The position numbers were made by a program, and so were the translations under genes. DNA of 64,000 nucleotides from Branchiostoma lanceolatum (Eukaryota; Chordata; Leptocardii; Amphioxiformes; Branchiostomatidae), in contig NC_089737.1 of NCBI RefSeq assembly GCF_035083965.1, positions 13,319,029 to 13,383,028 of the forward strand, written 5' to 3'. Positions within the stretch are counted from its first letter, which is position 1, and each line of letters starts with the position of its first letter. A model generated the notes under the pieces. It saw only the letters and a list, made by a program, of their open reading frames with translations. It made no database searches and was not told the DNA's origin. Shown here one piece after another: positions 1-62,589 of this stretch.

Positions 1-2099
1 TGCAGCCTAGGCACCAGATGTCGGAGGATTTCCCTACGGTTAGCCCGTCGTCACACTCCGGCGGAAGGTACTTGATGGGGGTGGGCGCGCTGCGATTGGT
101 CCGGGTGAGGGTGGAGCTAATGGCCGCTGTCTTCAGTTTGGCGACGCCCAGATCGCACAGGTACGTGTGTAGGGTGTCTTTTGCTATCTGCAATTATCAA
201 AGCGATTTGGTGTGAGTTAGACCATTTGAGAGGTTACAAATTTGCGGTCGTTAGCATTAGCGAAGCCGTATTGAAAAGCTACCTATTTAGTTGAGGATGA
301 AAAGGACAAAAGAAGAATTGTTATTTGCCTAGTTACAATGTTAAGATGTGCACCCACACACTCATCAACAGTATGCAAAACGATCTGTAAAAAAACCTGC
401 TAAGCGTCCATGTAGCAGTTGTCAAGCAATGTTCTACAGTGATAGGCAACTAAACTACGACTGTGATATAATGCAAAGAAACATATACATGTGTACTACG
501 TCCTAGAAGCGTGACGTAATAGAAAAATTACTCATTGACCAGATGATTCATATCGTACAAATTGAACATCTGTTCATGGTGATGATGATGATGAACTGAT
601 TTGAATGGACGTATCAACGTTATTATTGTAGTAACATATCAACGTTACCTACCAGTACATTTCCGGGTTTGATGTCCTGATGCACCAGGTCGTGCTTGTC
701 GTGTAGGTAGGACACGGCGCTGCACAGGTCTGTAGCGATCTTACCCTTCACAGGCATCGTCTTCGGCACCTACATATATCAAGATCAATATGTTACAAAC
801 ACAACAGTATCGTGGTTTTGAAAATCTGGAGTGTGCACATATTACCTTCTGTTACCAGTGAGGTAAGGGTGTCCACTTTTTGAAACTGGTGACAACGGTA
901 CTAAATTATCATTCCCAAACGCAAAATCACCATAATACAAGGATCTAACACACAGTAGAACTGATCACATATACCTGGTGATATGTACACGATATGCATT
1001 GCCGTACAGCTTACTTGTGCGTGTAACAGGTAAAGCCATTTCAGTGCACAGCAGCGTGATTATCATTGTTTGGTTCCTGAACAGATTCTTAAAAGAAATG
1101 GAAAATAGCAGTTGCTAAGCTTAAGGTTGAAAAATCCTAGCCACTTTGTATTGAGGGTATCTACATAAAAGAGAAACTTCTAAATACTACGCTGGCGCAC
1201 TACGTTCATGCTTCAAAATCTAGACAATGTATATTCTATACCTTTACTGGTGATCGTGACGGTCTGAAGAGGATCGTGCCCAGGTCAACACCGTCCACAT
1301 ACGTCATCAGAAGGTACCTTCTGGTGTTGGGCTGCCAGCAGATACCAAGTAGCTGGACGATGTGGGGGTGGCGCAGCTCCCTGTTTGAAAAACAAACAAA
1401 AAAATGTGATTCAAACCGTTTGAAGTACAAGCGGATGGTTATTGCAATTCTTCAACCAGATCCTGACCTCGGTAGCAAAATCAAGGATTGTGTGATTAGA
1501 TCTAGGCCGACTGTCAGAGACCATTTTTGCCCCCGAAGATCTACTTGTACTTGGAGGCAAGGAATTGCAGCATTTGATAGCATGGCAAATTCAAGCAGAG
1601 GACGATATCTAATCCCGACCATTTTAAATCAATGCTTATGTCACACTTCCGTAAGGTCTCGTGTCATGAAAAATAGAGTCAGTCATGAAAAATAGAGTCA
1701 GTCATCCTTTAACCGGTCGAAAAATGGGGTCGACTTTTTGTGTTGAAAGCAGTTCATTGACAAGTCAAAGGCACAGTAATTTGGTGGTATGACCTTATTA
1801 ATGCCAAGAACGTGCACAAAGCCAACCTTAAGTAAAGCAACAGTACCGTAACAGTTTAACCTTTCCATAAAAGCATACTTAATTATCGTACGTCATTTTA
1901 ATTTACCTTAAGTAATCCATCTCTCGACGGAAGCTTTCGTAGGTCTGGTCTTCGTCATCGAATTCTTTGACTGCCACGCGTGTTCCCTGCCACTTCGCCA
2001 GGTAAACTGTACCAAAAGATCCCCTTCCAAGCCTCCTGTTATCACCATGCTCGTCTTTTTCGATGGTGAATTCTTTTCTGTCGATTTCGATTCCTCTGG
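1..2099 (-). CDS. Exons 15-18: TKL/RIPK-like protein kinase domain (incomplete)
   Basis: Exon 15 (1907-2099) holds the glycine loop LGRGSFGTVY (about 571-580), the ATP-binding Lys in VAVKEF (about 592) and the helix C Glu. Exon 16 (1248-1380) continues ELRHPHIVQLLGICWQP, with a gatekeeper-region LLMTYVDGVDLGTIL. Exon 17 (653-769) has the catalytic loop HQDIKPGNVL: Asp 688, Lys 690 and Asn 693 are intact, but the usual HRD Arg is Gln. Exon 18 (187 down past base 1) has DLG (about 707-709) in place of DFG, then the PPE and SDIWCLGC motifs of subdomains VIII-IX. All phosphotransfer residues seen so far are present, so it is probably active. The lack of the HRD Arg suggests it may not need activation-loop phosphorylation. 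RIPK, IRAK and TNNI3K-like TKL kinases are the nearest types. Confidence 0.92.
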
Positions 2100-5000
2100 C
2101 TGTTAACAATTTGAAGACAGTGAGGTTAGTCAGCAACCTTAGAAAACAGTTTAGGACACAACATTTGTGCAGATTTTACTCTTGTAATGATAGTGTATCA
2201 CAGTTACTTTGATCTGTAGATAACATACATTTCGAAAAGTCCTAAACATATATATATTTTGTATTCATTTGTATGAAGCAAGCTAGGTATTGAATTTGGT
2301 AATCTCTTACCGGGGATCATAACTTAGTAGTTGCCAAATGCATACATCATACTTGGACACACCACATAATTCAATTGGGGGGTTAATGCTAAGGATGTAA
2401 TGAAATGTAATATATCTCCTCATTTTAATCCATGAAAACATGCACATAACACATTGTGAAAAACTAAATGATGGGGATAAACTTCCGATAAAGTATACCT
2501 TACCTGTGCTGCCAAACCCGGACCGATGTAGTCTCCTCTCAATAGATGCCCCTGGTCCTGCTCCTGCTCCGCTTTCGTACAGGGAGTTACTTGGTGCCTG
2601 TTGAATATCAAACACTCTCTCTTTAAAACGAGAAATACGATTAAAGGGCAGGATATTAGCAGAAAAGTACATCCGTGTATTATGACACGGTATCCGGTAC
2701 CGACTTCCAACTACCTTTGACCCGGTGCTCATAACCGTGTCAGCATCTATTCCTAGAAGACAAGATCTAAAATATGATGAAGTCGCGTTCCTTGTATTGA
2801 AGTCTAGTTTAGACCTTCTTCAGCAGTAAGATAGTTGCAAAAAACTTGATCTCGGTGATATATTCTTCTGCTTATTGTTCGCACAAGCTTTAGTATATGT
2901 TTGTCAATGAACCAACTGACCTCGGCATAGGGGTTGATCTGAGATCCATGGAGACGTTCTCTCTGCGATTGATCAACAGGCATGGCATCTGTTGGACGAC
3001 AACACAGTAATAGATATGTTAATCTTTAATGCAAGCTCACACCCGAAGGCATAATGCAGAATATATACAGACAGTGAACATACTAATTAGACCAATCTTC
3101 TGTAAAATTCTATTATCATTATTGCTAAAACGAAACCGTCATAATCAGTACTTTTGTTTCCAGTACTTACCAGGTGCGTCAGGTCTCTGTGACTCCAGCC
3201 TATTGCCGCCGGCAGCTTGTTGGCTTTGCCTTTCGTAGATGATATTGTCTATCTGTTAAGGAGGAAAAACTTGCTTTAGGATGGAAGATTTACCTATTTT
3301 GTTTTGTCAGCCGCTAACTGTGATTAAAGAAATGCAATAAACAAATAGATAAATGTGAGGAGATTTGTGATAAGACACCGTGTGTTTAAATGTGTACTTG
3401 TATAAGACAAAATCCTACCTGGGAATTTATGCGGTTCGTTGAACAGTCCATGGCTGTATGGATAAAGAGGAATGTTTGCTCAGAACGCTCATGGGTTTTC
3501 AGCAGAATTACGATCAAAGTTAAGTCTTCTAAAATGGATATGATATAGAGAATGTTTTTGGGATACCTTCCTCATCCTCGAGATCGTTGCTATGTCCGGC
3601 TTCTTGTGCAGGATTTCGGGATGTCTTCGGGTTTGTGTGATCTACAGCATGATATCAAAAACAACAAATGTAAACCTAAATCTATAAAAAAAATGTGGGC
3701 ATCGTTAAAGTCAATATACGTACTAAATACATTAAAGTCCTTAGTTTGCAGTTGTTTCGACAAAACATATCAAACAATTTCATTATCATTAGTGTTAGAT
3801 AGTAGTTTTTGACACGTGCCTATTTCATGTTTAATTTCTTATAAGTAGAAGACATCAAATGAAACACAAATATGTGGACAATTAAGATGACAAACGAATA
3901 CCATGTTGGAGGCTCTCCCCATGTGCATGGTCTGTTCCAACTTCATCTATGGGGAAATGAGACGTACTGGAATCCATCGGTTCTGGAAGATTTGAGAAAC
4001 AAGTTAATCTTGCTAATTCAAACGCACAAAAAATACGGTAAAATGTCAATCAATAATATAATATATAATTATAATCCCAGGATACAGATAGTATTATTGT
4101 GTGATATCATTGTGTGAATGCAGAGAAATTCACCATACAAGAATACTTAGTTTTGCAATTTGCATAAAGTTACATTATATGCCTCGATAATCAGATTTCT
4201 TGATATATATATTTGCTACATGTACCTGTCCCTGTATGGTCCTTTCGGACCTCCTGCATTGGGAACCGGGCCGAAGAGCTCGGGTCCAGGTCTTCTGTAA
4301 GAAGAAAATCAGACAACTACTACCTACATGTTTGTGTTAGAAACGTGTCAGTTTCTGCGCAATCTTGCCAACTTTTAATTTTAATAACAAAGGCCACTCG
4401 CACACTGTTACGGAGGCAAAGCATTCATAATGCATCTACAAAGCCGGTTTACGCAATACCTTTTAGCAGAAGAAATGTTTTACTTATCTGCAAGGATGAA
4501 GAATGTCAGGAAGTTTGTACCGACCTTGTGCAACGTCTTGGTTTGCGTCTTCGGTACCACCTCCTCTTCCTCCTTAAATCCAGAAGAAACGAGTATAAAA
4601 TATCATTAAAGAAATATTTCTTTTACACTCATATCCAAGTTGATCCCATCCCTCTTATGATATTGTGCATGGTGTACAAGGCATTGTGAAAGGGGAGATT
4701 ACCACAATTTATCCACCCATTACTGATCGATTTGTCCCTGATGATGTGAAATTTTTCTTTTTGTACCCATGAATGCTACATTCATTTTAGTAATGGCATC
4801 TCAGTCATCACAAGGGAAATATACTTGATGAATACTCACTTTCAAAGGCATCTACAGCGTTCTTCAACCCAGCGTTGAAAACTGCAGCCTTCAGACTTTC
4901 TATGGAAGAGTCGCTTTTCCTGTCCCAGTACCACATGTTCAGCGCCAGCTCGCAGCGTCCTCTGTCCTCGGCCTGTTTTCTCTGTATCCACGCGACTTTC

Positions 5001-8000
5001 TGTGGGGGAACGCCGAGTAGTTCGGCCAAGAGATGCCACTTTGGCCCTGCTCTATCCATGATTATAAGGAAGAACTCCGCTGTTTCTGCAAAGTAAGACA
5101 TCAGACGTCAGAAAGAGTAAATACTTTTCGTTTACACACACACTTGAATATATGTTAGAACACAAAGACAGTAGAAATATTTCTTAGAAAGATGCCTATA
5201 GTTGTGACAATGTTGTATTTCAATATGGCACATACACATCGCTCGGATTTCAGAAACTGTTTAATAGACTTTCAACCATGTGACCAAGTAATGGGTCAGT
5301 CAACCGGAAGGTCAAATCTTGGAGATATGGCTATTTGGAGAAGACAGTATTTTCTTAGAAATTCCCGGTTTCCTGTGTTGGAAGTCTGACAGAACATATA
5401 TATATATATAACATATATATATATATATATATAACAGTAATAACCCATTACCAGAGTCACGTGTCCTTAAGGTCAGGTGATTAAAGTAATTAGTCATGCA
5501 CTTTGAACAAAGACATAGTGAGTAAGGCTCAATTTCCTGTGTTAGAACAATAGTTTAATCTTCACCCTTACCTTCGAACTGCCCGGATCCATCCTCTCCG
5601 TCGATCCCGCCCAGATCTGCGGCCTGCAGCGCGGTCCACAGCCGGCCAACCGTCGCGTCGTACCCGTGCTTCTGTCGCCAGGTCGTCAGCACCTACATGT
5701 AAATCAATCTTTATTGTAAAATCAACTTTGCAGACATGTCTTGGAGGCCATAGCCTGGTCCCAGTCTCTAGGGTCGGCTTAGAAGTGTTTTACCGGGCCC
5801 AGTTTGCTTTATGCGACTCGTTTCTGTCAGCCTGTCTACTTAGCTGCCATATAAAATTTCGCAGCCGCTCTACTTAAGCTGCCAGAGAGAGTTCCGCTGC
5901 CGTCCTGGTAGCAACCTAATCTCATCCAAGGCCATAAACACACCCCGAGAGGGCTAAGCTGTCTGGGCGGGCGGGGATCACTACCAGCGCCGTAGAGATA
6001 TCGGAGAGCCCCCGATGGTATGGTTTCCAGGCTAGGCGGTCACAACTGAATTGCGAGAGATTTTTTACATGTTTAAAGAACTACACAAACATTCCAGTCA
6101 ATTAGATCACAATTACATCACAATTTTCATATTTATGAACTTATATACTTTCAAAAGGTGTCTTTTAGACGGACAATGACAAAAGACAAAAAGCACCTCC
6201 ATACAGCACTCCCGCTTGTCACGATGCTTGTCTTCGATCACCTCGATGTCCACTTCTTTAAAACCCAGTTGACGGGTAAGGTCCTTCCAGGCCATGCCGA
6301 CATTTTCTTTGATGGTATATAACGGATCCTTGTGTACGACTGTGTTATAGATACGTAACAGGATCATAATCACATTTTAGTACACATCTATGTCATTTAG
6401 TATCACTTGATATCTACCAATCGTTGTGAAAATTGCTTTTGTATTGCTTATTCTTAGATTTTAAGCAAGAAACTGAATACTTAAGTGAATGCATTTTGCA
6501 TCGCATTCGTGTAAATGTGAAAGCATAATGCAAGGAAAGTACATACATTGATTTTGCTGATAGTAATGCCCAATATTTGCTTCTGCGTTAATTATGACGA
6601 AAATTGTAAACAGAAACATACCAGCGCTAGGTCTCGTAGGACGACGAACAACTTGTTCTGTATTATAAGAACACAAAAGACATGCGTTTTCGGAAAGACG
6701 AATATTGAATTGTAATCCTTTTATTTCATTTCAATGTTGATGATTCTAGCATTTTCTCTACTATTCATACAGCTGTGCCTTGAGTATGTAAAAAGAAATT
6801 AAGCACAAAAGATTTATTGTTAGAAATACATTAAGTGAAAAAGTGAAAAAGAATCAAATAAGTACCTGAAGCCGGACGTTGGTAGGGCGTAGCACGGGAT
6901 CGTGGATGGTGAACCGGGGCAGCCGGCGGTTGTCTTCGCGCTTGGGCAGGAGCGGTAGCCGGGCGGGAATCACCTTGGGCCACCTGGGCCGATTCTAAAG
7001 AAAACATGACAAGCTTCTATTGGGTGATTGAAGTCACGTGATTATGACCGAACTCATCGTTAGCAATGTTGGTTGGCCAGTGTACAATATGTAAAAATGT
7101 TCTGAACAATTTGTTAATGTCCTTAATTTACCGTTTTCTTGAAATTCTTTTATAGGCTATGTATATGCGGAGAGCCACTGACTTGGAATTCTTCCCTACT
7201 TAAAACTGCATTATCAGAACAAAAGTCATAACTCATATGTTGAGAAATGCATTAGAATTCAGAAATAAGTGTAGTATGGCATGGTAGGATTTTAGTGATG
7301 CAGTCAAACCTGTACAAGTGACTACCTTATCATAATACTTTTTGATGGTCACAAGATTGTTTTCCCCATTGACACAAGCATTAAGAATTCTCAGACCTCT
7401 CTATAGTGACCACCTGCCCACATAGACCACATCATTTCATCATTCCCCTGAGCGGTCATCTTGGGCAGGTGTATTTCTTTAAATCTCACCGATAAGTTCT
7501 GCCACGCTCCTGAAGCGAGCCGAGATGAGCGCTGCCTTCAGCATGTCGACCGTTGCCTGTCTCCCGTGATCCCCTAGCCACACGTTGAGTGCCCGGATGC
7601 AGCAGTCCCGCGGTCTGCCTCGGTATGTCTGCTCTATGGAGGCGATCTGGGGCTCGTGCAGGCCCAGTCTACGGGAGATCTCTTTCCACTCGTGACAGGC
7701 GTTTTCCACCACGATGTTAAAGTATCTTGCTATGCCTTTGAACAAGGAGGTTTAAAATCATGAATACATAACACTGAAGTTCAGTGTTGCAAAACATATG
7801 ATATGTCAGTTGACAGGGGGTGTTTCAAGACTAGAGTATGCAAAGGTTGCATTTGTGGTCTTTGGAAAGGCACCTGACAGACCCAGTCTACGGGAGATCT
7901 CTTTCCACTCGTGACAGGCGTTTTCCACCACGATGTCAAAGTATCTTGCTATGCCTTTAAATGAAGACAGAAATCATTTTCAGTGTTGTGATACATATGT

Positions 8001-9251
8001 CAGTTGACAGGGGGCGTTTCAAGACTATAGTGTATGCATCGGTGGCCTTTGGCCTTGAAAGGCACTTGACAGGTCCAATCTACGGGAGATTTCTTTCCAT
8101 TCGTGACAAGCGTTTGCCACCACGATGTCAAAGTATTTTGCTATGCCTTTAAATTGACGTGAAACATTTTCAGTGTTAATGTACATGTCAGTCAGCAGGG
8201 AGCGTTTCAAAACTAGAGTGTGCAAAGGTTGCATCGGTGGCCTTTGGCCTTGAAAGGCACCTGACAGGCCTAATCTACAGGCTATCTCCTTCCACTCCTG
8301 ACAGGCGTTTTCTACGACGATGTCAAAGTATCTTGCTATGCCTTTAACTGAAGACGTTAAACATTTTCAGTGTTAATATACATATGCATGTTAGTTAACA
8401 GGGGGCGTGTAACCTTTTATGACAACAGGACTTGGAGGCTGCATCCATGGCCAATGGAAAGGCAATTGACACAATATTTCTCACGTGACAATGAAGATTA
8501 GTATTATGCCTTGGTATAGTAAAGGTTAAAATTGAACCGGTGGAAAGAAAAAGATGAGCTTCGCTTTCCATACTGTAGTGCCAGCCGGGCCCTTAGTAAT
8601 TAAGCTCCATTTATTGAACTCACAATATTAAAGTGACAATCATGCATACAAACTCACTTTCACTTTCAAATCATCATAGCAGTCAGCTATAGAAGCGTAT
8701 AATGCTAAATATTTTTAGTCTACACTTTCCTGGTGCTGCTAAAAACAATACAGACTTTATTCTAAACAAATAGCAAAAAACAAAGGGTTATAGTCTCAAA
8801 ACAATTGACAGAATACTAGCTATAGCTAGCCCTCAATTGTACTTTGCCCTACTATGGAAAAGTTGAACATTTTGGATGTGAAATTCAAAACGTAACTTAC
8901 ATGAAAGCAGTATACAAAAACGTTGATTTTTACAAACATAAATCTACTGTGACAACGATAGCACTAACCTGTAGGTCGTTGGTTCCTAAGTAAGTTACTA
9001 AGATGAGTGTTGCCTGTGTTGTCCAACGCTTTACAGAAAGCTAAGAACGCCCGGTTCCCTTTCGTGGGTAGGATGGTCAGTAATGCCCGTACCCGGTCAG
9101 TTTGGAGCCTCCTGGACCGAATATCGTCTTCTTCTTCTGCTAAAAGGATCCTTTCCTTAACCAGTTCGTCAACGACTCCGGGCACGTTGACTATACCGTT
9201 GACCAATTCCACCCGAAACTGTGTTAACAGATTTCTATGCTGCGGATCCAT
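1..9251 (-). CDS. CARD - death domain x3 - protein kinase gene (3' end outside window)
   Basis: I assembled this from 18 exons by matching GT/AG sites and reading phase: 8969-9251, 7490-7735, 6866-6994, 6622-6657, 6197-6306, 5572-5692, 4840-5085, 4525-4572, 4226-4294, 3567-3641, 3419-3453, 3171-3252, 2921-2988, 2504-2597, 1907-2099, 1248-1380, 653-769 and 1-187. Together they give about 757 residues with no stop. The order is CARD (1-94), DD1 (95-176), Pro/Ala/Arg-rich linker (177-231), DD2 (232-308), DD3 (309-390), low-complexity linker (391-547) and kinase (from about 550). Kinase subdomains I to IX are present; the C-lobe end lies off the left edge. CARDs and death domains are homotypic assembly modules of apoptotic and innate immune complexes, so a cytosolic adaptor-kinase is the natural inference. 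Closest known layouts are CRADD (CARD-DD), RIPK1 (kinase-DD), RIPK2 (kinase-CARD) and IRAK (DD-kinase). None has this combination. Exact small linker exons are less certain than the domain exons. Confidence 0.88.
2504..4572 (-). CDS. Exons 8-14: low-complexity linker between death domain 3 and kinase
   Basis: Seven short exons (4525-4572, 4226-4294, 3567-3641, 3419-3453, 3171-3252, 2921-2988, 2504-2597) code for about 157 residues rich in Gly, Ser, Gln, Asp and Glu. Examples are a GRGGGTEDANQ segment, an acidic SNDLEDEE segment and a GAGAGPGAS run. I recognise no domain. The exons were chosen because each has an AG acceptor and GT donor and keeps the frame from DD3 to the kinase. One or two could be mis-bounded or alternatively spliced. 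Confidence 0.65.
4840..5085 (-). CDS. Exon 7: death domain 3
   Basis: A 246-bp exon, phase 1-1, encoding TAEFFLIIMDRAGPKWHLLAELLGV and onward through ALNMWYWDRKSDSSIESLKAAVF. The Trp, LGV, W-IQRKQ and ALN.WYW landmarks of the death-domain core are all present, and no stop interrupts. Its length equals that of the DD1 exon. It is followed by seven short linker exons and then the kinase. Confidence 0.92.
5572..6306 (-). CDS. Exons 5-6: death domain 2, split by one intron
   Basis: Exon 5 (6197-6306) gives NVGMAWKDLTRQLGFKEVDIEVIEDKH and onward to CCMEV. Exon 6 (5572-5692) gives VLTTWRQKHGYDATVGRLWTAL and onward. Together they match the second half of helix 1 to helix 6 of a death domain, including the core Trp and LGF turn. 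The phase-0 intron between them is unlike the intronless DD1 and DD3. The donor after exon 5 reads GTGCTT, which is weaker than consensus. Helix 1 looks shortened, so DD2 is the most divergent of the three. The intron between the two halves contains a palindrome-ended repeat (5751-6034). Confidence 0.85.
5751..6034. mobile_element. MITE-like element with TAGCCTGG ends, in the death domain 2 intron
   Basis: The segment starts TAGCCTGG and ends CCAGGCTA, with no coding content. The same terminal octamer bounds elements near 15978-16073 and 17701-17784, so it is probably a family. The inner part (CGGGCGGG, TACCAGCGCCG) resembles a stretch near 56760-56820. Confidence 0.55.
6622..6994 (-). CDS. 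Exons 3-4: proline-rich linker between death domains 1 and 2
   Basis: Exon 3 (6866-6994) encodes a Pro/Ala/Arg/Gln-rich stretch (for example ARRQPPAAPVHHPRSRAT). Exon 4 (6622-6657) adds 12 residues, QVVRRPTRPSA plus the split codon. Both are phase 1-1 exons with good acceptors (CTTTAG, ATACAG) and donors (CAG then GTACTT; CTG then GTATGT). No fold is expected here. The sequence looks like a flexible, basic spacer. Confidence 0.75.
7303..7472. mobile_element. Element related to the 12-kb transposon family
   Basis: It begins CAGTCAAACCTGTACAAGTG and ends near GGTCATCTTGGGCAGGTG. It has internal CTATAGTGACCACCTGCCC. Similar sequence occurs at about 10440-10740 and 37430-37683. The ends resemble the terminal repeats of the 12041-13399 element. 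No transposase is encoded. Confidence 0.55.
7490..7735 (-). CDS. Exon 2: death domain 1
   Basis: This 246-bp exon has phase-1 introns on both sides and encodes one complete death domain. Visible landmarks are the helix 2 segment NACHEWKEISRRLGL, the Trp that is typical of the fold core, EPQIASIEQTY for helix 3, and ALNVWLGDHGRQATVDMLKAAL for helices 4-5. Death domains pair with other death domains in receptor and adaptor complexes. The exon has exactly the same length and phase class as the DD3 exon, which suggests duplication of a whole exon. Fragments of the same exon lie in the preceding intron. Confidence 0.92.
7869..8346 (-). repeat. Three tandem partial copies of the death-domain 1 exon in intron 1
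   Basis: The 3'-splice-site end of the DD1 exon is repeated at about 7874-7954, 8066-8146 and 8261-8341, in units of roughly 190-200 bp that include intron sequence (shared TTTCAGTGTT and GACAGGGGGCGT stretches). Each copy keeps the AG acceptor, runs 81 bp without a stop, and then meets a GT (GTGCC). Each would therefore be a phase 1-1 exon adding 27 residues that match helices 1-2 of DD1. The copies lose similarity to DD1 after the residues LGL. They are either dead remnants of tandem duplication or alternative mini-exons; the sequence alone cannot decide. Confidence 0.8.
8969..9251 (-). CDS. Exon 1: CARD domain and start codon
   Basis: The exon begins MDPQHRNLLTQF and ends in a phase-1 donor (ACAG then GTTAGT). 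It encodes a full six-helix CARD. Helix 1 is amphipathic (RNLLTQFRVELVNGI). A central VVDELVKERILLAEEEDDI segment follows, then the ILPTKGNRAFLAFCKAL signature, which resembles the ILPSRG.KAF motif of CRADD-type CARDs. CARDs bind other CARDs, for example those of initiator caspases, NOD-like receptors or RIPK2-type kinases. The ATG is the first in this open frame and directly precedes the fold, so no signal peptide is present. Confidence 0.92.
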
Positions 9252-10961: not shown

Positions 10962-13900
10962 CTAGCCTTCTGTCTTGACTGAATTGGTGCCATTGCCTGA
11001 AAGGCAAAGATAGAACATTACAAATGGTGACAAAATGTTTAAGAAATACATATTATAACTAAGAATCTATTGTGTAAATATTTTGCAGCGTTGTCCATTT
11101 TCTGCGCATAAAAATACATCCCTAAATTTCAGAGAATGATTACAATACATTACCATCACTTCTACTGATACATATAATGTAATAAATACACACCAAACAC
11201 ATGCATATCTCCTGTATAGTATAGCCTTCCACAAATAAGTTATACTGATATTGCACACTCTTCAAAATGTTAATTCATAGAAGATTTGCATGTGCTTAAC
11301 TAAAGCTTTTGTTTTAATTAGTTTTTAAAAAGAGTTCTTCTTTTTTCGAATATATATCTACAACTGTTTTCTCATCTTTAAAAACTGCAACATTTTGAGT
11401 TGTACAAAACTGGTGTGTTATGTCTAAAGGTAGTTTACTGGTTATGCAAAACAAACATTTGGATATGCAGCGATCTCTCCCACCTCCGTTGTTTGTTTCC
11501 TCTATGGCGTCCTCGGGTAAGACACACTTCCAGAGTCCGTACGTCGTGCCGACGTTTGTCTGCCACAGTCGCAGCGTACCGTCCTCCGAACCGCTGGCGT
11601 ACAATTCTCCGTCGGGGGAGAAACGCACGCAGTGGACAGGGCCAAAGTGACCCTTGTAAGATTCTAAAAGAAAAGGTTACATGTAAGTGTCTTGGCCTTG
11701 GTAGTCCGTCATTGCTGAAGCTAACTGTGTTCTCATCACGAAGGTTGGGACCTCATGTGGCTCTGGAGACCAAATCCTGAGTGTAGGGGTTGATGTCCTT
11801 GAAAAATATACATTGTCAACACAATCTTTAAATGATATACATGTATCATAGAGTTTCAGTAAGGATGCTAAATTTGCATTCCTTAGTAAAACTTTTAGTA
11901 AAACTCTTCATCGACAACAATGGACGAACATCATAGAGTTTTACTAAGGAATGCTAAATTTGCTTTGATCTGCAAAAAATAACATTACTGTAACAGCAAT
12001 TATTTTCCCAACAGCAATTTTCAAACAAAGAGAAAATAAATACAGTCGAACCTGCCCAAGGCGACCACCCGGCGGACCGAGCAAAAACGGCCGCGATGGA
12101 CAGGTGGTCGCCATGAAGAGGATTCCACTCACATGTTTCCAGGTCGAGGTTTTCAAATACAGTACGTAAATGGTTGGAAAATTATGTGAATTTAGACAGC
12201 GCGACCCCCGCCAGGTTCAATTCTCATTGACAGAAAGATCCTACAAAAATTACATTTTCCGTTATCGTTGTAATAATTGCATACCGCTACATCGTGTACA
12301 AATTTTCGTCATAATTTTGACTACAAAACAATGGCTACAAATCGATGCCTCGCAGCGCCCTCCCGCATTCACACGTTACATTGAATAATACACACACACA
12401 CGCACATCATCGAAGTTTTAAGGCCTAAGACAAATCCCTAGAAAACACCTGCTGGTCGCAGCCTTTTTTTGGGGCGCCGACCGCTGGATAAAAGGGGCAA
12501 AAAGTTTTCGATCTGACAACTAATTATATAAGATGAAAACGGAACGGTGTGATTTCGTCGCGCCGCCAAGCTCTGTGCGACCGCATCGAAAGGTATTAGT
12601 CAGTGCAGCAGAACGCACAGCGTCCAATAAAGGTTTGTGAGATTCATGAAAATAAAAAGAAAATAAGAATATTAATTTTCATAAATAACTAGAGTATTCG
12701 TAAATGTTCATACACAAAAGCATCGTGTTTTAGAAAGGTCAGCGGTACGCCAAATCCGGGCCGCCCCAAATCCAAGATGGCGTCGGGACCGAGGAACAAC
12801 ATTTCTCGCCCGATGTTTTGCCCGCCGCGAAGTCATTTTTCGGCGGAGTTTAGTAAGACACAGACACATTTTTGTTGAAAATACAAGAAATAGATAGTAA
12901 TTTCTGTGAAATCTGACTTTTTGACGCCATGCACTACGTATCCGTTCTGAAAATTGAGTTTAAACCGAACTGAGTTTGCGGTAAACTATAAGATTACGAT
13001 AGGCACAACAACATCACAAACATCTGTCTTTACAATGTTTATAGGGGGAACGTTTTATCAAAACACTTCATGGAGGAATCGATGCTATAACATTGCTATT
13101 CCATATATTTTTGTCCTTATTTTTGTCCTTCAAAGTCTTGAAAACATTTCCGTGAAATCCGACAGCAAAATGATCTGATGTCACCACACGCTTGAAAATT
13201 AGGCGGCCGCCATGGGCAGGGATTGTGCTCTGTGCGGTCCCAATTCGTGGGGGTCGCGGTCGCGTTGGACGGGTGGTCGCCTTGGGCAGGCAGCTTAATG
13301 CTTGTGCCTATGGGGAAAATTTTCGGGACCGAGAAAAAGCGGTCGCCATGGCCAGGTGGTCGCGTTGAAAAGGTGGTCGCCTAGGCAGGTTTGACTGTAG
13401 TCTCAAACTTGTCAGTTACTCTCATCAGGGCCCATGATAAGGAACACAGCAACCAGTTTGAAGCCTGGCATAGCAGCTCAAGAAAAACATACTTTTTAGA
13501 GACATTTTAACATGTAAATTTAAACAGTTCTTACCCAGTTCTGAGCCAGTTTCGTAGTCGAACTTGTAGAGTTTGAAGTCCTCTCCACCAATCACATAGG
13601 TGCCCTTGTCTTCGTTCAGGGAGGCTGAGTACACCTGTGATGGAGTACTGTAGGACTTCAGCTTCTCTAAGCTGTGAGGAAGACAATAGTAAATTGTCAG
13701 AATGTGACTTAGGGCTGTATGCCAAAATGTAGTATAAAGAACAAATGTTTACAATTGTATTTTTATCCAGTAGTAAAGATTCAATTTTATTCAATCTCCT
13801 TTCCTGACCTGATGACTAATATTCAGAAACGTATCAAGAACAAAGTACAGGTACACATAGAGCTTTGTACCAGACCCAGCTTTACATCTCATTCAAGAAG

Positions 13901-37683: not shown

Positions 37684-40135
37684 CGGGAGGGCTTTACGTC
37701 TCGTGTCATCTCTACAGGTTTGTAGTCTCCTTTTTTTATTTCTTAATACTCATGATTTAAAACCTTTCACAAGTTTTCGGTAGTCCCAGAAGGCAAAATA
37801 AAGTACGAAGATACACGATAACATCCCACGGCAATCAATTGTATTTATGATAGGCAATTAATACTAAAGGAAAAACATGTACTTTAAAGTTGCAGTCGGC
37901 CTTTACAGCAATAATGGAAAATCACGATGATAATGAGTAAAGCGACCAAAGCCCGGAGGACCCAAAACGATGACGTCAAACCGGTGCTGAGTTCCAACAT
38001 CAAAGATTCCCCGCACCTTCCCGTTTGCGTCACCAACAGTGCTCTGAAATCGCAGTTAAAGAATCTTCGTACAGTTTTTCATTTCTATCATCTGAGGCTT
38101 TTGAATGCCAATTGTTCAGCACTGTGTTAAGGGATGATGGCGACCGCAGGGGTTTTGCGTAAAGGGCGATTGACGTCAATGATAGCAGATGCAAACAGCT
38201 TAAAGAGCCTTAAGTGCAAGATGTTACAAGCCAAGGATAAAACTATCCATTACTTGGCTTTAATGGTATTCCTTAAGAGCGTAATTTCAATCGTGTAAGA
38301 CTTGAAAGAAACATTCATCTACATCTAGCTTTTCCTGTTCTTTCAAATAGTGAAGTTGAGTCTTTTATGAAAGGTTTGCAACCAATCGTGTGTATGTATG
38401 TATTAGGAAATCTTACGAATTGATAGCAACCAATAGGCGTCGTCAACTGCAAGAAAAGTAGGATTTTCAATGGTGCTGTCGAAATGTAAAGTAATCTGTA
38501 ATGCTTTAGGCAAGCTTAGTACCTGGTGTGGCATTTTGCCTAATGCGTAAACTCAACATTTTGTTTTGTTCTTGTTTTGAATGAAGCACATGCTGTAGAA
38601 TATATGTAACTATAGTATTTTGATGTTGTTAGAGAGAGAGATTGACTATCAAGAAATATTGAATATATAGAAGAAGGCCGATTGAATAAGTATAAATACT
38701 ATAACGTCAACGTACCATGAAATGTGTTTTGGAGGATGAAAGCTTGAAGTATGGCAACCTAGCTGGGACTAATTACACTAGCTAGTTGCGTCTTCTTATG
38801 CATAATGTAGCCTTTCTAGTGAAGTAATAGTTTTATATCTTTTGTCGGATAGTCCAAGATGGCGTCACCTCAAAGCAAAAGGTCCTATGAGATACTGTCC
38901 AAAAAGTTCTCTCATTAGTTGAGAAACGTGGGCGTTATGCCGCGTAAAATCTAGGTGTTCACCATGCAGATTTAAGGCATACCAGTGCACTACACACCTA
39001 AATGCAACACATAGATACAATACTATGTAGATGATATTTTAAATGTAAATGTATTTCAGTGTTGGAACCCATTCTTACCTTGATACTTTGATGACGGTTA
39101 GACATCCAGCAGTCGTTGTCTGATGCTGTCTGACTCTGAAACGTTTGCCTGTTTCAAAATTTTATCCAGTTGTATGAGTAACTATTTTTGCCATTCTTAC
39201 CTTGTTTTATAGTGGTAGCAAGCCCGCTTCTGTGAAGCTATGGAAGTTCAAAAAGTCGGCCGGTACAAGTTGCGTATAAAGGCTCTCTTTAAGGCGTTCT
39301 AAGGGGTGACGTCAACACCACCAGCATAAAGATGGAAAAGACAAACAATGGATGAAACCCGATCACACAAAGAACTAATCCCTTGTGTGGGAAGATGTGA
39401 AAGAAAATTGACATTTATATAGAGTTATACATCAAACCAATTAGGTTTGTTACGTTTACGTTATGTATAGTGACCCAGATACAAAATCTCCAAAGGTGCT
39501 GAATTGAAAGGTCGTAGCCAAATGTCGCACCTGCCTGCTTGGTGGTACATTTACATAACATGTATAAAAACATTCAACGACATAAGCGGCAACCCTTACT
39601 TTGTGCAAATAGGTAAGTATATCAAAGAATGTTTAGACCTTAAAACTAGTAGTGTAAGTGATAGGAAATATATCAAAGAATTCTTTGAACTTAGTGATAC
39701 GTCAAACACGACATGTCGAATTATCCGTATACTTATACGTAGGTTATCCTTGTGTATCCACTTGTTTGTTTGCATGCATAGTTGTAGACTTTTGTTGTGT
39801 CAATAAAGGTTGTTGTTGTATAGGTCTAATATGAAATGTCGCTCATCTTCTGTTTATTACAATGTTGGCAAAGTCTTTGTATTACCGTGTATTTGGCGGT
39901 CTGGCTAACTTCTCCCAACAGTTGCAAGCGTGCCAAGACATGTGGAACGTATTAAGTCCTAACCTTGACTATGGGTGTGTGTTGCCTCAAAGTGGATCAA
40001 GAACGTTTGAAAATAGCCGGGTTAGATAATGAACCTGACGAAAATCTAGGTCAATGCCAACGCAAGGGATGGTGGAAGTGTGGTTTAAGGTGGAAAGTTA
40101 GGGTTGTGGTAAGGACTGTTGAGATTCTAGGTCAA

Positions 40136-40516
40136 CAACCCTATCCACAACCCTAACCACAACCCTAACCACAACCCTAACCACAACCCTAACCACAACC
40201 CGAACCACAACCCTATCCACAACCCTAACCACAACCCTAACCACAACCCTAACCACAACCCTAACCACAACCCTAACCACAACCCTAACCACAACCCTAT
40301 CCACAACCCTAACCACAACCCTAACCACAACCCTAACCACAACCCGAACCACAACCCTAACCACAACCCTAACCACAACCCTAACCACAACCCTAACCAC
40401 ACCTAACCACAACCCTGACCACAACCCTAACCACAACCCTAACCACAACCCAAAACACATCCCTAACCACAACCCTAACCACAACCCTAACCACAACCCT
40501 AACCACAGCCCTAACT
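40136..40516. repeat. 12-bp minisatellite (CCCTAACCACAA)n
   Basis: About 31 units with rare CCCTATCC, CCCGAACC and CCCAAAAC variants. Read on the minus strand the unit is TTAGGG followed by TTGTGG. The long open frames on the minus strand arise only because 12 is a multiple of 3. Confidence 0.97.
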
Positions 40517-51136: not shown

Positions 51137-51661
51137 AAATGCATTTAATTTCGCGTGGTTTTTATTTCGCGCTAAAACGAAAATGAGGTGTTTGCGGTGG
51201 TTTTAAGTTCGCGGCAGCGCTATAGTCACACTGCTACAGTATTGGACAAAAATGTTTGCGGTGGTTTTAAGTTCGCGGCAGCGCTATAGTTACACACTAC
51301 TACAGTATTGGACAAAAATGTTCGCGGCGGTTTTAAGTTCGCGGCAGCGCTATAGTTACACACTGCTACAGTATTGGACAAAAATGTTTGCGGTGGTTTT
51401 AAGTTCGCGGCAGCGCTATAGTTACACACTGCTACAGTATTGGACAAAAATGTTTGCGGTGGTTTTAAGTTCGCGGCAGCGCTATAGTTACACACTGCTA
51501 CAATATTGGACAAAAATGTTTGCGGTGGTTTTAAGTTCGCGGCAGCGCTTTAGTTACACACTGCTACAGTATTGGACAAAAATGTTCGCGGCGGTTATAA
51601 GTTTGCGTTGAAACTGTCGCCGCGAAAACCGTGAACATAAAGCCACCGCTGCATTTAGACT
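51133..51661. mobile_element. CTGTAAATGCA-type MITE, copy 3, with 66-bp internal array
   Basis: TGTAAATGCATTTAATTTCG at the left and TGCATTTAGAC at the right mark the family. Inside, the GGACAAAAATG.TTGCGGTGG segment is repeated at exact 66-bp steps (GACAAAAATG at 51245, 51311, 51377, 51443, 51509 and 51575). Since 66 is a multiple of 3, long frames stay open on both strands without coding meaning. Confidence 0.92.
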
Positions 51662-62240: not shown

Positions 62241-62589
62241 TAGAAAGTAGCCTCCGTTGCAGGCATCCCCGCGGCGATTTTCAACTTATCGGGGCCAGGT
62301 TCTTTGACTGGGGGCCGTATCTGCTTGGGGACCGTATCTGCTTGAGACCCCGTATCTGCTTGGGGACCGTATCTGCTTGGGGACCGTATCTGCTTGGGGA
62401 CCGTATCTGCTTGGGGACCGTATCTGCTTGGGGACCGTATCTGCTTGGGGACCGTATCTGCTTGGGGACCGTATCTGCTTGGGGACCGTATCTGCTTGAG
62501 GCCCCGTATCTGCTTTGGATCCTGGCCCCGATAAGTTGAAAAATCGCAGTGGGGACGCCGGCGCCTGCAACGGAGACTTCCTAGAAAGT
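62241..62589. mobile_element. Palindrome-ended element with a 17-bp internal array
   Basis: The arms include CCTCCGTTGCAGGC and inverse GCCTGCAACGGAG, then TCAACTTATCGGGGCCAGG and CCTGGCCCCGATAAGTTGA. Between them lie 12 copies of CCGTATCTGCTTGGGGA (17 bp, about 62308-62514). The repeated open frames on both strands reflect 3 x 17 = 51 bp periodicity and are not genes. Confidence 0.93.

Follow-up and report, generated by a model that had tools for sequence, protein, structure and literature searches.

A predicted lancelet gene that combines a protein kinase with a CARD and three death domains

Exons and domains of the predicted gene

The window analysed is a 64-kb stretch of DNA from the lancelet Branchiostoma lanceolatum. 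A predicted gene is located on the minus strand at one end of it, running from position 9251 to position 1. The gene model consists of 19 exons, 18 of them complete and one cut by the window edge. Conceptual splicing and translation of these exons gave a frame of 797 codons with no stops. The original prediction of eighteen exons joining in phase is borne out as regards the joining, while the number of exons has to be corrected to 19 by counting the cut one. The junctions 8969/7735, 5572/5085 and 2504/2099, which it had singled out, are reproduced exactly in the rebuilt spliced model. All 18 introns are GT–AG by construction, since the splice sites were picked by eye. The exon coordinates below refer to the minus strand.

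Exon 1 (9251–8969) contains the start codon and a complete CARD (residues 1–94). An in-frame TGA is located directly 5′ of the ATG at 9251, and no AG separates the two. Therefore no upstream exon can be spliced at this place, and the N-terminus is well defined. The donor of exon 1 ranks at the 98.7th percentile among the GT sites on the same strand of the window. The CARD was detected by Pfam with an E-value of 2.4e-16 when scanned alone and 1.4e-14 in the whole chain (PF00619, 59.9 bits against a gathering score of 23.9). In a phmmer comparison with known CARDs it matched those of APAF1 (3.7e-6), caspase-9 (5e-5) and RAIDD (0.0091). The structure predicted for the CARD alone was poor (pLDDT 58.0) and was left out of the fold search.

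The first death domain, DD1, is encoded by a single 246-nt phase 1-1 exon, exon 2 (7735–7490). It is followed by linker 1, rich in Pro, Ala and Arg by composition and encoded by the in-frame phase 1-1 exons 3 (6994–6866) and 4 (6657–6622). The second death domain, DD2, begins in exon 5 (6339–6197) and runs on across the junction into exon 6 (5692–5572). The third, DD3, is again a single 246-nt phase 1-1 exon, exon 7 (5085–4840). When the pieces were scanned alone, the Pfam Death model matched DD1 at 2.9e-11, DD2 (exons 5 and 6 together) at 1.2e-15 and DD3 at 1.5e-6. The corresponding PF00531 scores are 43.8, 57.8 and 28.7 bits against a gathering score of 22.6. DD1 matches the death domain of FADD at 1.2e-7. 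DD2 matches those of ankyrin-1 (2.4e-7), RIPK1 (2.5e-7) and CRADD (0.004). DD3 shows weak sequence similarity to solved death domains, with a best E-value of 0.16. Its structure, predicted from three window sequences, reached a pLDDT of 85.5 in the best model and 70.6, 67.3, 57.7 and 50.3 in the other four, and the best E-value of the predicted model in Foldseek was 1.0e-3.

Linker 2 comprises 184 residues encoded by eight exons: exon 8 (4572–4525), exon 9 (4294–4226), exon 10 (3982–3902), exon 11 (3641–3567), exon 12 (3453–3419), exon 13 (3252–3171), exon 14 (2988–2921) and exon 15 (2597–2504). The remaining four exons encode the kinase, which Pfam detected as Pkinase at 3e-32 in the whole chain over profile positions 4–185 of 263. 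The match stops at position 185 because the window ends; the end of the C-lobe and the stop codon lie beyond its edge. The CARD, the three death domains and the kinase, all of which had been called from the letters alone, were thus each confirmed by Pfam above the gathering score.

Ahead of the kinase there are 15 introns, 12 of them in phase 1. Each of the remaining three splits a pair of exons that, taken together, form a 1-1 unit; one such pair encodes DD2 and is interrupted by a phase-0 intron. The introns within the kinase have the phases 2, 0 and 0. This is the phase pattern expected from module shuffling. A bias of shuffled exons towards phase 1-1, above all of domain exons, has been described for lancelets in PMC4284660.

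Within a 195-bp tandem repeat in intron 1 (7803–8383, minus strand), the beginning of the DD1 exon, its first 78 nt, recurs as three partial copies with open frames. Over this exon part, the copies and exon 2 show 82–97% identity to one another, and the nearest copy shares 76 of the 78 positions with exon 2. In gapped alignments the flanks are 73–77% identical among the copies and 47–61% identical to exon 2. Codon differences in the exon part amount to eight silent and six replacing ones between copies 1 and 2, and to one of each kind between copy 3 and exon 2. They show no clear bias towards silent changes. Each copy could represent an 81-nt in-frame cassette with the acceptor AAAG and a donor-like TCAG/GTGCC or TCAA/GTGCC. 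Recent duplication or gene conversion explains the likeness of the copies as well as their use does.

When the 64 kb were searched with the domains of the gene by tblastn (E<0.1), the hits were confined to the gene and the partial DD1 copies in its first intron. Beyond 9.3 kb the window contains 120 stop-to-stop frames of at least 75 aa. Ninety of them were scanned with Pfam; most of the 30 left out overlap other frames or are situated within or close to tandem repeats. In the scan, 15 families reached an E-value of 0.01. Thirteen are WD40/beta-propeller models that all fall on one frame at 11317–11676, and the other two are DUF1242 (0.0035) and CILP_5th (0.0037). The WD40 repeat frame (Pfam 1.2e-11) is located upstream of the gene on the same minus strand. 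Its best 60 matches listed in the PDB are other WD40 proteins only, and it resembles the C-terminus of a STRAP orthologue. Neither an Rfam match at gathering score nor a tRNA was found in the window. Positions 40135–40515 are occupied by about 32 copies of the 12-bp unit ACAACCCTAACC (94% matches), a telomere-like repeat. Clean tandem arrays were also observed at 51189–51607 (66 bp, 6.4 copies) and 62309–62515 (17 bp, 12.1 copies).

The kinase domain and its relatives

Exon 16 (2099–1907) encodes the glycine loop, the beta-3 lysine and the alpha-C glutamate, exon 17 (1380–1242) the N-lobe and hinge, and exon 18 (769–653) the catalytic loop HQDIKPGN. Exon 19 (187–1) contains the DLG motif, the activation loop, the PPE and the DIW motif, and its reading is cut by the window edge after DIWCLGC. 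Translation and alignment thus place GRGSFGTVY, VAVK, the alpha-C glutamate, HQDIKPGN, DLG, PPE and DIW in the window. The catalytic roles of these motifs are standard. The Gly loop, beta-3 Lys, alpha-C Glu, HxD and DxG are all present and align with five reference domains. Judged from these residues, the visible catalytic core of the predicted kinase is intact.

The original prediction assigned the domain to the TKL kinases. The kinase call stands with the Pfam match, but the TKL label is not established. The best relatives in a redundant list of PDB chains are a two-domain tyrosine-kinase chain (86.4 bits), MAP3K5/ASK1 (77.3), CTR1 (74.1) and ABL2 (71.7). No RIPK or IRAK chains are among the best 60 of 798 PDB matches, places filled by redundant ABL and ASK1 chains. 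When the five references were scored in one run, MAP3K5/ASK1 reached 77.9 bits, RIPK2 58.1, RIPK1 51.6, IRAK4 51.5 and the JAK-type domain 42.0. When the stretch preceding the glycine loop was removed, the scores were 63.5 for ASK1, 55.2 for RIPK2, 51.1 for RIPK1, 50.0 for IRAK4 and 42.5 for the JAK-type domain. A large share of the lead of ASK1 is due to this stretch, as its margin over RIPK2 shrinks from some 20 bits to some 8. The best identity to the references is about 31%, with the C-lobe missing from the comparison. By sequence comparison, RIPK and IRAK are no nearer relatives of the predicted kinase than MAP3K5 is. The NCBIfam matches of the domain are bacterial and archaeal kinase models, far under their cut-offs.

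The stretch before the glycine loop in exon 16 (2099–1990, minus strand) itself resembles MAP3K5/ASK1, reading EKDEHGD where ASK1 has EYDENGD. This likeness may be a sign that the kinase derives from a MAP3K.

The linker exons and the extent of the gene

The exons of linker 2 were assessed with a dynamic programme run over the gap between DD3 and the kinase (4839–2100). It combined splice consensus, frame and stops, used generic splice weights typed from recall and charged 4 bits per exon. Five of the eight linker exons, E9, E12, E13, E14 and E15, were recovered with the exact boundaries of the hand model. The chain scored 27.0. In 100 dinucleotide shuffles the mean score was 1.7 and the highest 8.6; none reached the observed value. 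On the opposite strand of the gap the same programme found no exon chain that beats the empty chain. E8, E10 and E11 were not chosen. Their weak splice sites are the E8 acceptor (77.7th percentile), the E10 donor (75.2nd) and the E11 acceptor (70.5th); the acceptors of four domain exons are hardly stronger (79.9 to 81.6). The length of each of the three exons is a multiple of three, so their omission leaves the frame unchanged.

Codon composition sets the linker exons apart from open intron segments (0/1000). Codon usage failed as proof of the linker frame, since the +1 frame (86.9) and the +2 frame (41.0) both outscore the true frame, which comes last with 29.7. The linker exons are supported only by the splice chain and by the way their composition differs from that of intron segments. 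E9 and E10 are alike, with a shuffle p of 0.0005 for the best of 15 pairs compared, and this likeness counts in favour of a single gene. A duplication of E12–13 as E14–15 is not supported (p 0.40).

Exons 9–15 (4294–2504, minus strand) also contain two PxQE stretches (p 0.002) and three N-x-Y-E-like tyrosine motifs (0/5000 shuffles), both motifs having been picked after reading the sequence. PxQE is the TRAF2-type consensus. A broader TRAF2 pattern shows no excess over chance in the linker (p 0.18). The two PxQE stretches are possible TRAF sites, candidates from a pattern chosen after the fact.

The predicted single chain of CARD, three death domains, linker and kinase is the best model for the locus, presumably read from a single transcript. 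A single chain is likely. That the death domains and the kinase belong to one gene is well supported but unproven, as judged from the splice signals and the frame. It is rather unlikely that two adjacent genes or transcript classes are present instead, namely a CARD-DD-DD-DD adaptor ending after exon 7 and a kinase starting at a linker methionine. Such an arrangement is favoured by the stop that read-through past the E7 donor meets after 10 residues, by ATTAAA variants at five sites in the gap (4385, 4379, 3835, 3030 and 2429) and by the in-frame linker methionines at residues 430, 443, 494 and 534, which could serve as starts. The ATTAAA variants and the read-through stop would allow a short form with the CARD and three death domains. 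Fused models are also a known lancelet annotation error: PMC4967905, which mentions neither death domains nor CARD, uses EST cases to argue that domain fusions in lancelets can arise in this way. Against two genes stand the strong E7 donor at the end of DD3 (99.1st percentile among the GT sites on the same strand of the window), the lack of any AATAAA in the gap 4839–2100 and the in-frame exon chain across it that the shuffles do not match. The modelled gap exons keep the frame from DD3 to the kinase, and a direct splice from DD3 to the kinase is in frame as well.

Known systems and the proposed mode of action

CRADD/RAIDD consists of a CARD followed by one death domain and has no known kinase domain. 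The locus resembles it in the order of CARD and death domain, in the match of its CARD to RAIDD (0.0091) and in the match of DD2 to CRADD (0.004). The model differs from this layout of a single death domain and nothing else by two more death domains and the kinase. The IRAK/Pelle proteins have one N-terminal death domain, a C-terminal kinase and no known CARD. As in IRAK/Pelle, the death domains precede the kinase in the predicted chain, visible up to the window edge. Unlike IRAK/Pelle, the locus has three death domains and a CARD, and its death domains match those of FADD, RIPK1 and ankyrin best. A kinase joined to a death domain or a CARD is found in RIPK1 and RIPK2, respectively, and DD2 matches the RIPK1 death domain at 2.5e-7. 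The RHIM core pattern, which concerns RIPK1 and RIPK3 only, is absent from the 797 visible residues, the C-terminus lying beyond the window. The human RIPK1 and RIPK2 are kinase-first according to Table 2 of PMC9573974, whereas here the CARD and the death domains come first.

Similar layouts are found in Branchiostoma floridae. By the counts of Table 3 in PMC9573974, with columns assigned from a flattened version of that table, 11 of 19 RIPK-related models contain DEATH, and nine of these have it ahead of the kinase. These nine of the 19, DEATH-kinase and LRR-DEATH-kinase models, share the order seen here, and the kinase is at or near the C-terminus in eight of them. Unlike the gene described here, all 19 models are listed without a CARD, and eight of the nine have LRRs. 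Eight of the nine also have a single death domain; the exception is LOC118408547, with two death domains, each followed by a kinase match. According to the text of the same source, vertebrate members are the only ones in which CARD and RHIM have been identified. Amphioxus hybrids by "direct connection", described with cDNAs in the available part of PMC2575513, include death-caspase, death-NACHT, DED-NACHT, TIR-SAM and TNFR-caspase proteins. They share the principle of death-fold domains fused straight to effectors, and that part describes no CARD-DD-kinase protein.

The original prediction put this exact combination forward as unfamiliar. No description of a CARD with three death domains and a kinase was found in the literature covered, namely search listings and passages from the texts of papers. 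The claim of unfamiliarity is softened by the amphioxus models of PMC9573974 in which DEATH, alone or with LRRs, is joined to a kinase that in most cases is C-terminal. The combination appears to be an unusual yet understandable recombination of known cell-death and immune-signalling parts, following a principle already known. In two lancelets, according to PMC12373286, no domain is more over-represented among dispensable genes than Death (35 and 34 genes), and therefore the gene described here may vary between individuals.

We propose that the locus is probably one gene of shuffled phase-1 exon modules encoding a death-fold scaffold kinase that clusters and activates itself. The partners, the oligomerisation and the output we infer from its modules: the CARD, a FADD-like DD1, a RIPK1/ankyrin-like DD2, a FADD-like DD3, a flexible linker and a kinase whose visible catalytic core is intact. 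Death folds are known to form helical complexes. Here such an assembly, of the CARD or the death-domain type, would be nucleated by an upstream protein with a CARD or a death domain. The three tandem death domains would raise its valency, and together with the CARD they may offer several surfaces for nucleation or bridging. The flexible linker of 184 residues would tether the kinase domains and let them meet, leading to mutual phosphorylation. Trans-phosphorylation after clustering is known for the Myddosome kinases and the RIPKs. Caspases or other CARD or death-domain partners could be recruited to the same platform. That the protein would act as scaffold and kinase at once, as originally suggested, is thus a reasonable inference. 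The output of the kinase would most simply go to NF-kB or JNK-type cascades. NF-kB is a reasonable output because amphioxus RIPK1a and RIPK1b, as cited in PMC7179693, bind TRAFs and activate NF-kB. JNK/p38 would be a fair rival output because the kinase resembles ASK1.

It is possible, if on balance doubtful, that the kinase works as an ASK1-like MAP3K rather than like RIPK or IRAK, so that a death-fold-triggered MAP3K would feed JNK/p38. MAP3K5/ASK1 heads the five references at 77.9 bits, and the likeness includes the stretch before the glycine loop. However, CTR1 (74.1 bits) and ABL2 (71.7) are nearly equal in the PDB, the lead over RIPK2 shrinks to about 8 bits (63.5 against 55.2) without that stretch, and the best identity is about 31% with the C-lobe missing. 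An unlikely reading is that kinase activity is beside the point and that the CARD and the tandem death domains bridge or cap assemblies as a scaffold or decoy. The CARD and three death domains do fill the N-terminal half, and partial domains could in principle come from the half-DD copies of intron 1; the visible catalytic residues are kept, which would not be expected under relaxed constraint. The same copies enter a very unlikely scheme in which a single-protein signalosome, equipped with assembly surfaces of both the CARD and the DD type as well as the effector kinase, replaces the separate adaptor and kinase, and the three 81-nt half-DD segments serve as in-frame cassette exons that insert an incomplete death domain and tune or stop assembly. 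The tandem partial exon copies could also be taken as a sign of a decaying or misassembled locus rather than a working gene, and assembly errors may occur, but with 797 codons free of stops and intact catalytic motifs this is highly improbable.

If the proposed scaffold kinase is transcribed as one chain, CARD-driven and death-domain-driven inputs would meet directly on one kinase. This would be a shortcut between pathways that vertebrates link by separate adaptors. The gene would then provide a natural test of whether tandem death-fold clustering suffices to switch on a kinase, and it would be another case of exon-module shuffling rewiring invertebrate innate immunity.
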